Source of the DNA: Euzebya rosea
GTDB taxonomy: Bacteria > Actinomycetota > Nitriliruptoria > Euzebyales > Euzebyaceae
Length of the DNA: 64,000 nt
NCBI RefSeq assembly: GCF_003073135.1
Contig: NZ_PGDQ01000009.1
Span: 124,001 to 188,000 of the forward strand
Direction: 5' to 3'
In this document: piece after piece, positions 20,854 to 24,375 of the stretch
Position numbering within the stretch: position 1 is the stretch's first letter
How the letters are laid out: each line of letters opens with the position of its first letter
Translations under genes and position numbers: made by a program
Notes under the pieces: model-generated
What the model was told of the DNA's origin: nothing
Seen by the model: the letters and a program-made list of their open reading frames with translations, nothing else
Database searches by the model: none

Positions 20854-23757
20854 ATGGCGTCCGTGACCCTGCCCCGTCATCCCGAACCCCCTGTCGGCCG
20901 GGCCGACGAGCTGGCCATCCTCAGCCGGCTGGCCGCGGCGGCCCGGCGCGACGCGGACCTGCGCGTCGCGCTGGTCTCCGGCGACGCCGGCATGGGCAAG
21001 TCCCACCTCGTGGCCGCGTTCGCCGCGGGGATCGAGGACGCGTTGGTCATGGTCGGCGAGTGCCTCGACCTCGGCGGGGCCACCCTGCCGTACGCCCCGC
21101 TCGTCCAGGCGTTGCGTCCGGTCCTGCGCGAGTCGACGGCCGACATCGACGTGGACCTCGACGCCCCTGCCCGTGCGGCGCTCAGCCGGCTCGTCCCGGA
21201 GCTCGGTCCCCCGCCGGAGCGGGCGCAGGGCGTCGCTGACATCGACGTCGGCCAGACCCAGCTCTACGAGCACCTGCTGGCGCTGCTCGAACGGCTCGGC
21301 CGACGGACCGGCCTGCTGGTGCTCGTGATCGAGGACCTGCACTTCAGCGAACCGTCCACCCGTGACCTGCTGGCCTTCCTCAGCCAGAACCTGACCGGCG
21401 CGCCGGTCCTGCTGGTCGCGACCGTCCGGGGCGGCGAGGTCACCCGGCGGCACCCGGTGTCCCGGCTGCTGACGGCGCTTCGGCGCGGCTCCCGGACCAC
21501 CGAGGTCACGCTGGGGCCGCTCGGAACGGTCGCGATGACCCAGCTCCTGAGGCCGCTGTGCGAGCACCTGCCCGACCAGCACGCCGTCGACGAGGTGCTC
21601 GAGCGGGCCGACGGCAACCCCTTCTTCGGGCTGGAGCTGGCCCGGTCGGGCCGCCGGGTCCCCGACCACCTCGGTGACCTGCTGCTGGACCGCTTCGACG
21701 AGCTGGCCGAGCCCACCCGAGAGGTGCTCCGGTTGGTGGCGGCCGCCGGCGATTCGATCGACCACGACCTGCTGCGGCGCATGACCGGCATGGAGGAGAC
21801 GGCGGTCACCCGCGCGCTGCGCGAGGCCGTCGACCACCGCCTGCTGGTGGTCACGGGGGACGGTGCCTATCGGTTCCGCCACGCCCTGCTGCAGGAGGTG
21901 GTGCACGACATGCTGCTGCCCGGCGAGGCGCGGCGCCTGCACCAGGCGCTGGCGGCGGCGCTCGAGGCCGACGGTGGCCTGCGCGGTCGACACGCGGCAG
22001 CCCTTGCTCGCCACCACCTGATCGCGGGGGACGTCGCCCGCTGCCTGGAGGCGTCCTTCGCCGCAGGGGTGTCCGCCCTCGACGCCGTGGCCTACGTCGA
22101 AGCCCAATGGCACTTCGAGCGGGTTGCCAAGCTGTGGCCCGACGTGCCGGACGCCGGAGAACGAACCGGAACCGACCTGGCGGAGGTCCTGAAGAAGGCG
22201 GCCCTGTGCACGGTCTCGGGCCACGACAGACGTCGGGGCCTGTCGTTGGCTCGACAGGCGCTGACCCAGCTCGATCCCGACGCCGACCCACGACGGGCCG
22301 CGCTGATCCAGATGTGGATCGGCCACGCCATGCAGCACCTCGGTGACCCCGGCGGCGTCGATGCGTACCGGACTGCGGTCGCGACGGTCGGCGAGGAACC
22401 GACCGAGGAGCGGGCCAGGGTGCTGGCGGCGCTCGCCAAGGGGCTCATGGTCACCAACCAGGCCGTGGAGGCCGAGGACGTCGCCACGGAATCCATCGTC
22501 GTCGCGCGGCAGGTGGGGTCCGTTCGCGACGAGGCCTACTCGTTGATCACGCTCGGCACGATCGAGATGGCACGAGGGGATCACGACGTCGGTCGCACGC
22601 ACCTGGAGGAGGGAACGCGTCTTGCTGCCGACATCAACCGGATCGACTACGTCCTGCGGGGCCACACGAACCTGTCGCACAGCCTGATGGTTGCCGGTCA
22701 GCTCGAGGCCTCCATCGCCGTCGCCCAGCGGGGCGTGCCGCTGGCTCGGGCCAACGGGTTGCTCCGCAGCCACGGCGTCTACCAGCAGGCCAACATGGTC
22801 GAGGCGCTCGTCCCCCTGGGTCGGTTGGCGGAGGCCGAGGAGCTGGCGGAGGAGAACGTCGCGCTCTCGCCCGACGGGCTGGCAGGGGCCCACGCCTACC
22901 TCGGTCAGGCCGAGGCCCGGCTGCTCCTCGGCGACGTCGACGGCGCCTCGGCCGCCGTGGCTTCGGCGTATCGCCACATGGGAGGGACGGCCGAGCCGCA
23001 CTTCGCGGCGAGGGCGGCGGTGGTCTCGGCGGGGGTCCAGCAGGCGCTGGGGAATCACGGGGCCGCGCTGGAGGAGTCACGATCAGCGCTCGTCGCGCTG
23101 CGCAACGGGCAGGGCCCGGCCCGGTACGAGGCGTCGCTGGCCTGCAACGTGCTCGAGGCCGTGATGGCGCTCGCGGCGTCCGCACCCGTGCCGAACCAGG
23201 TCGTCGAGGACGTCGTCGCGGCGGTGGATGCGGCCACGGCCCGTGGCCAGACGGCGTTGCACGTCGCCGATGTGGCTCGGTTGGGGGCGTTGTCGGCGCA
23301 GCTCGAGGGGGTGGACACACGCGAGGCGTGGACAGCGGCGGCGACGGTCCACGACGAGATGGACCTCGCGCCGGGACACGCCCGTTGCCTGCTCTCCCTG
23401 GCCGAGGCAGAGCTGGAGGCGGGGGACCGCGCTGCCGCGCTGGCGGCCTGGAAGGCCGCGACGCGCATCGCCGACGACATCGGGGCCGGCCGGCTCGTGA
23501 TGGCCGCCACCACGCTCGGGCGCCGCGGCGGGTTCCTCGACCCGGACAGGGTCGAGGATCCCTACGAGCTGACGAACCGCGAGATGGAGGTCCTCCGGCT
23601 GGTCGCCGACGGGCTGTCCAACGCCCAGATCGGCGCGGAGCTGTTCATCACCGGCAAGACCGCCAGCGTCCACGTCTCCAACATCCTCGCCAAGATGGGG
23701 GTCGCCAGCCGCGGACAAGCGGCAGCCGAAGCGCATCGGGCGGGACTGTTCGGCTGA
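20854..23757 (+). CDS. LuxR-family ATPase transcriptional regulator (AAA/LAL type)
   Basis: A 967-residue large ATP-binding LuxR regulator. An N-terminal AAA-like ATPase has Walker [10 protein letters not shown] (about residues 45-52) and a Walker B-like [10 protein letters not shown] long helical TPR-like middle (about 420-880) probably binds ligand or partners. The C-terminal HTH (about 900-960) has the LuxR signature [19 protein letters not shown] and [18 protein letters not shown] 20854 is chosen because the conserved [16 protein letters not shown] precedes the ATPase; longer upstream frames are shadows. Single gene; regulated targets are unknown. Confidence 0.9.
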
Positions 23758-23799
23758 ACCCGCCTCGTGCCGGGCACCACGTCGCGCTAGGCTCGCCGC

Positions 23800-24375
23800 G
23801 TGTTCCGGATCTCCCGACTGCTGCTGGTGGCCCTGGCGTTGCTCGCCGCGGCGTGTGGGTCCTCGGCGCCGGAGTCGTCGGTGGCGGCCCCCGCTGCGAC
23901 CTCCGTGCCGGCTGCCGGCACGAGCGCCGCGACCACCGGCCCGGTGACTCCGGCCGGTGACGTCCCCGAGGCGCTGGCCTTCAGCGCAGCGACCCTCGGT
24001 GGTGGCACCTTCGAGGGGGCGAGCGCGGTCGGCAACGACCTGCTGCTGTGGTTCTGGGCGCCCTGGTGAAGCACCTGCAACCGGGAGGCTCCCGAGGTTG
24101 TGCAGGTTGCGCAGCTGCTTGACGAGGACCAGCGCATCGTGGGCGTCGCTGGACGCGACTCCATCGAGGAGATGGAGGCGTTCGTGGACCGCCACGGCCT
24201 GTCCGACGTGGTCACCATCGCCGACCCCGACAACGTGGTCTGGGACCGCTTCGGGGTGTTCGGCCAGCCCACGTGGGTCTTCGTGAACGGCGAGACGGGT
24301 GAGGCGACCACGCGGTTCGGTGCGCTCGGCCAGCAGGGCGTGCTGGCGGTCTTCGAGAGTGGCGGCTTCGCGTAG
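23800..24375 (+). CDS. Thioredoxin-like lipoprotein with in-frame TGA: putative selenoprotein (UxxC)
   Basis: A single 191-residue frame if TGA at 24067-24069 (codon 90) is read through. Residues 1-19 are a lipoprotein signal peptide with lipobox LAAAC (Cys19); a Ser/Ala/Thr linker follows; residues about 56-191 are a TlpA/DsbE-like thioredoxin fold. The active site reads LLWFWAPW-U-STCNREAPEV, so TGA stands exactly at the first Cys of CxxC (U90, C93). The cis-proline region GQPTWVFV is intact downstream. GTG 23800 has TAGGCT 6 nt upstream, consistent with a leaderless mRNA. Predicted extracytoplasmic thiol-disulfide oxidoreductase. Alternatives: a nonsense mutation or sequencing error (TGC to TGA). 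Confidence 0.78.
24067..24107 (+). promoter_or_regulatory. Candidate bacterial SECIS element following in-frame TGA
   Basis: Directly after the TGA, 24073-24082 (ACCTGCAACC) pairs with 24096-24107 (GGTTGTGCAGGT, a TG bulge), and 24083-24086 GGGA pairs with 24090-24093 TCCC, closing a GGC loop at 24087-24089. The loop begins 18 nt after the TGA and opens with two G residues. Both distance and loop composition fit bacterial SECIS elements recognised by SelB. Pairing was done by eye, not by folding software. Confidence 0.65.

Follow-up and report, generated by a model that had tools for sequence, protein, structure and literature searches.

Background

In mycobacteria, the DsbE/DsbF family has been studied as a group of secreted disulfide-forming proteins. 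Its M. tuberculosis members (Mt-DsbE and Mt-DsbF) fold hirudin oxidatively in vitro, without insulin reduction (PMC3853704). The cytochrome-maturation thioredoxins CcmG/DsbE, ResA and TlpA belong to the same superfamily and have cysteine, not selenocysteine (Sec).

Selenoproteins with a UxxC motif in a thioredoxin fold are already catalogued for bacteria. Table 1 of a 2026 catalogue (PMC13188914) includes Thioredoxin (PF00085), Thiol-disulfide isomerase-like (cd02966), Redoxin family (PF08534), Prx-like thiol:disulfide oxidoreductase (PF00578) and Thiol:disulfide interchange (PF13098), in which Sec replaces the first cysteine of CxxC and a bacterial SECIS element (bSECIS) follows right after the UGA. 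The same source defines a bSECIS by an apical loop of 3-9 nt with a G in its first two positions, an upper stem of 4-16 bp, a distance of 16-37 nt from the UGA and a minimum free energy (MFE) of at most -7.5 kcal/mol. None of the catalogued families is named as a DsbE/DsbF-type lipoprotein; this sets them apart by name (example HEU0032618.1), and the present family may already be listed there as a 'Redoxin' or 'Thiol-disulfide isomerase-like' entry. A search of the open literature, with most subscription papers outside its range, found no description of a Sec DsbE/DsbF-type lipoprotein or of selenoproteins of the class to which Euzebya and Nitriliruptor belong.

The locus considered here lies in a stretch of 64,000 nucleotides of Euzebya rosea, referred to as the window (C9:124001-188000). 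It very probably encodes a selenoprotein, an exported oxidoreductase of the DsbE/DsbF type in which UGA codon 90 is read as Sec (Table 1), and would place Sec at the active site of this family.

Table 1. Features of the locus and related genes of the same genome. Plain positions refer to the window; those with a contig prefix refer to the contig.
Feature	Position	Strand	Remarks
TAGGCT, candidate TAnnnT-type -10 element	23788..23793	+	6 nt before GTG; by eye
Gene for putative Sec-containing DsbE/DsbF-like lipoprotein	23800..24375	+	GTG start; 191 codons plus TAG stop (24373-24375)
Predicted signal peptide	23800..23856	+	lipobox-like A-A-A-C, predicted lipidated Cys19; sequence pattern
TGA codon 90, probable Sec (U of UxxC)	24067..24069	+	aligned to first active-site Cys of DsbF/MPT53
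SECIS-like hairpin	24071..24110	+	apical loop GGC 24087-24089; RNAfold -20.3 kcal/mol (over 24067-24114)
Resolving Cys93, TGC	24076-24078	+	C of UxxC
cis-Pro codon, Pro157 in FGQPTW	24268..24270	+	DsbF/MPT53 alignment, AlphaFold model
selA	C9:102277-103323		window's contig
selB with winged-helix domain	C9:97090-98919		window's contig
tRNA-Sec, anticodon tca	C6:152701-152792		
selD	C2:75998-76924		SelD protein itself with Cys
Formate dehydrogenase alpha gene (L200)	G000:C15 near 71453-71455	minus	in-frame TGA at canonical Sec site
Second Sec-containing copy (paralogue)	G000:C4:370617-371123 (L155:8618-9124)		

Reading frame and relationship to known proteins

The frame is interrupted by a single in-frame TGA, after which it stays open for 101 more codons. 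The surrounding residues read LLLWFWAPW-U-STCNREAP. These coordinates agree with the preliminary description, which had placed the TGA at codon 90, in the position of the first cysteine of a WAPW-C-x-x-C motif; the cis-Pro region (FGQPTWVFV) and the lipoprotein-type N-terminus were also found as it claimed. With Sec treated as cysteine, the Pfam models AhpC-TSA, Redoxin and Thioredoxin span the TGA over residues 58-175. Dozens of other internal TGAs in the window resemble UxxC/CxxU-type motifs, and none of those looked at has thioredoxin-like surroundings. The neighbours of the gene encode an AAA/LuxR-type regulator (upstream) and a DUF4333 lipoprotein (downstream).

The closest PDB entries by sequence are M. 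tuberculosis DsbF (Rv1677, 3IOS; E 3e-27) and MPT53/DsbE (Rv2878c, 1LU4; E 1e-23). AlphaFold predicts a confident single domain (residues 55-180, pLDDT near 90) with residue 90 just before a helix at 91-106, and a Foldseek search with this model as query ranks the same two proteins first and second, 3IOS with a TM-score of 0.88 by target length. The likeness extends over the whole domain and includes the WFW[AT]PW-x-xxC motif, the N-terminal extension and, by prediction, an extracytoplasmic location. DsbF and MPT53 differ in having cysteine, not Sec, as nucleophile, and share about 41% and 36% identity, respectively, with the window protein. The 'thioredoxin-like' identity first given to this protein therefore stands as to the fold but is a generic label, the sequence and fold matches being specifically DsbE/DsbF-like. 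Sequence and predicted fold alike assign the protein to the DsbE/DsbF family of actinobacteria, in a Sec version. Its active site is UxxC where the family has CxxC, the first cysteine being replaced by a UGA codon, and for this reason we call the protein a Sec variant and not an ordinary member.

Other family models lie further away. NCBIfam NF041054 (ResA-like WAxxUGC motif-containing protein) also describes a selenoprotein, ResA-like, whose Sec lies in the WA..U region; it differs in its UGC motif and its 354 positions, and the window protein scores 23.4 bits against a cut-off of 300. The scores are likewise far under the cut-offs of the dsbE (34 of 123 bits) and ResA (38 of 170) models, and no NCBIfam selenoprotein model is passed.

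Structure of the mRNA after the UGA codon

The TGA is followed by a hairpin with a GGC apical loop, 17 nt from the codon. A GG-beginning loop in the range of bacterial SECIS elements had been proposed for this site, and the predicted structure bears this out, lying within the published bSECIS limits. The stem had been given as 4+5+5 bp, beginning 4 nt past the TGA. The hairpin is real; this helix arithmetic departs a little from the MFE structure, which starts at 24071. All 28 of the 28 Sec loci pass the bSECIS criteria, several divergent ones with a different and less certain loop call.

A core of the form UGCAAYCGGGA-RGC-UCCCG..GGUYGC is shared family-wide. Within the hairpin stretch, codons that these genomes otherwise seldom use are kept: AAT (3% of Asn codons) in 5 of 20 genes, GCT (6% of Ala codons) in 13 of 21 and GTT (3.5% of Val codons) in 7 of 20, as well as GCA. 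CCC and CGG are nearly fixed there among the homologues. Set beside synonymous recodings of the same stretch, the hairpin shows only a moderate gain in stability (mean z -1.06 over 21 genes, against values between 0 and -0.67 for control stretches of these genes); the window gene gives p 0.03 and its paralogue z +0.4.

For the 21-row alignment RNAalifold returned a weak consensus of another shape, which was discarded in favour of the structure common to most single folds. The latter pairs in 88% of alignment cells, compared with 23-50% when slid along the alignment. Covariation in the hairpin alignment was no better than in shuffles, as expected from protein-coding constraint. A SECIS covariance model run over this genome matched the two genes already known and reached no other selenoproteins. 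The structural evidence for a SECIS element is supportive and by itself not decisive.

Capacity of the genome for Sec decoding

The preliminary description had made its reading depend on selA, selB, selC and selD, and all four are present in the genome (Table 1). The selA and selB genes lie about 45-50 kb from the window gene. A similar arrangement, with the Sec gene and selA on one contig some 23-65 kb apart, is seen in eight genomes of the order. Between selB and selA of E. rosea (G000:C9:97090-103323, L151) there is a gene for a ClC-type chloride channel with CBS and TrkA-C domains.

In the same genome the alpha gene of a formate dehydrogenase has a canonical Sec site (ARI-U-HSSTVPGLGTSFGRGGATT / ARI-U-HSSTVPGLGTSFGRGG), and a stable hairpin comes after it, an independent sign that UGA is decoded as Sec here. 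Moreover, among the sampled genomes SelA was found in 21 of 23 with the Sec form compared with 5 of 11 with Cys forms only (p = 0.007). The two Sec-form genomes that gave no SelA match are incomplete or fragmented assemblies. In the order, the Sec-form genome G006, a fragmented assembly, has no SelA match. Within the order alone the association is not significant (p = 0.19), because most of its genomes have SelA.

These observations bear on the alternative that UGA is decoded through a suppressor or altered tRNA as another residue, tryptophan or cysteine. The cysteine homologues do show that cysteine would work at this site. Against it stand the complete set of tRNA-Sec, SelA, SelB and SelD, the Sec formate dehydrogenase, the SECIS after the codon and the use of UGA to end genes in this genome, for example the upstream LuxR-type gene (TGA 23755-23757). 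Decoding as a residue other than Sec is thus very improbable.

Distribution of the TGA codon in relatives

Among 30 genomes of the same order, 13 close homologues were found in 12 genomes, each with exactly one internal stop, a TGA; the next-best homologues, lacking it, drop to E ~1e-15 and 30% identity. Extending the survey to 66 genomes of the class gave 21 TGA-bearing genes, the second copy in the E. rosea genome among them. In 21 of 21 the TGA lies within W[FML]W[AT]PW-U-xxC and the frames are open; the genes come from two orders. A chance origin of the TGA is excluded by its presence in the 20 further class homologues.

Outside the class, 8 genomes of a phylum-wide sample of 396, from other families, carry the Sec form as well, and others, mostly Actinomycetia, have cysteine at the TGA position. 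About 90 actinobacterial Cys homologues align their first active-site cysteine with codon 90; the wide contig scan used a WAPWC-type pattern, which favours Cys forms and gives no basis for counts of Sec against Cys. The position is therefore occupied by either TGA or cysteine in frames that are undamaged, as the Sec reading had predicted. A Sec protein of this kind had been thought unusual in an actinobacterium; it is not isolated, Sec being the rule among the close homologues of the class and present elsewhere in the phylum.

Downstream of the TGA, comparison with the nearest orthologue (81% identical, NG86 method) gives dN 0.052 and dS 0.354, a ratio of about 0.15. Selection on this part of the gene is purifying. 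As foreseen for ordinary gene finders, a plain ORF listing divides the gene into ORFs of 89 and 91 aa, which is what would be left if the TGA were a true stop, a nonsense mutation in a decaying gene. The recurrence of the TGA at the identical codon in 21 open-frame genes of two orders, the purifying selection after it and a complete Sec machinery argue against a pseudogene; this reading was rejected on the first two grounds and retains only a very slight probability. Selenoprotein genes are routinely split or lost by annotation pipelines, and throughout the class the present family seems to be a blind spot of this sort.

An equally small chance is given to the possibility that the UGA serves mainly as a selenium-dependent switch, yielding a truncated 89-aa lipoprotein without selenium and the full enzyme with it. 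Such behaviour is in principle a property of all Sec codons, but nothing points to selection on the truncated product itself, which would be without most of the thioredoxin domain. Although a single base separates TGA from TGC and TGG, a sequencing error is of negligible probability and was rejected on the conserved TGA, found in independent assemblies of many species, and on dN/dS, with the SECIS-like hairpin after the codon also against it.

Probable export and possible function

In 20 of 21 homologues a lipobox-like motif lies 14-32 residues past a possible start; for the remaining one (L143) the start may be elsewhere. On the contrary side, the lipobox of the window copy has alanine at -3. 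On the strength of the signal peptide and of this recurrent pattern, the Sec protein most likely acts outside the cytoplasm as a lipid-anchored thiol-disulfide oxidoreductase. Upstream of the gene, the position of TAGGCT suggests a leaderless mRNA with its own promoter, and a similar TAnnnT occurs at the same distance from the start in about ten orthologues.

In the mechanism proposed, SelB and tRNA-Sec would read UGA codon 90 as Sec, directed by the hairpin just downstream, and the product would be exported as a lipoprotein with a single thioredoxin domain like that of actinobacterial DsbE/DsbF and a predicted U90-x-x-C93 active site. The U90 selenolate may then attack a substrate disulfide, or take part in forming one. 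Cys93 would resolve the mixed selenosulfide and a membrane partner would restore the active form. Sec generally renders such an active site more reducing and nucleophilic. This nature of the site, together with the position of the paralogue beside a ccm operon, inclines us slightly, as a weak guess, to a role of the reductant or isomerase type and away from that of a bulk oxidase; the Cys homologues point the other way, being oxidants in vitro. The protein provides a concrete case in which to ask what leads some bacteria to retain a costly selenium residue in an extracytoplasmic protein.

The paralogue is directly preceded by genes for CcmB, CcmE, CcmF, a CcmG-like thioredoxin and CcmH, and followed by that of a ferric-reductase-like (Ferric_reduct) membrane protein, perhaps MsrQ-like. 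This neighbourhood suggests a tie to cytochrome c maturation or to extracytoplasmic repair. The adjacent ccm operon has its own CcmG-like thioredoxin.

Origin of the Sec form

In an unrooted tree of 122 sequences, from a sample biased towards Cys forms, the Sec/Cys label needs two changes. A single clade (support 99/99) takes in every Cys sequence except the Cys copy of G208. It is conceivable, if rather doubtful, that the Sec form is ancestral in the DsbE/DsbF family of the phylum and that a single Sec-to-Cys switch gave rise to the Cys enzymes found in mycobacteria and in other Actinomycetia. Were this so, the lineage would have an extracytoplasmic selenoprotein redox system of long standing, partly tied to cytochrome c maturation.

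This family allows a direct comparison of one enzyme in its Sec and Cys versions, even within a single genome: G208 carries one Cys copy and one Sec copy in tandem (L180, G208:C154:60448-61698). In the other family of the class (f5, loci L168-L174), a gene for a HAD-type hydrolase typically comes after the Sec gene, with that of an M20-type peptidase on the other side, a neighbourhood that is different from that of the window gene but conserved.
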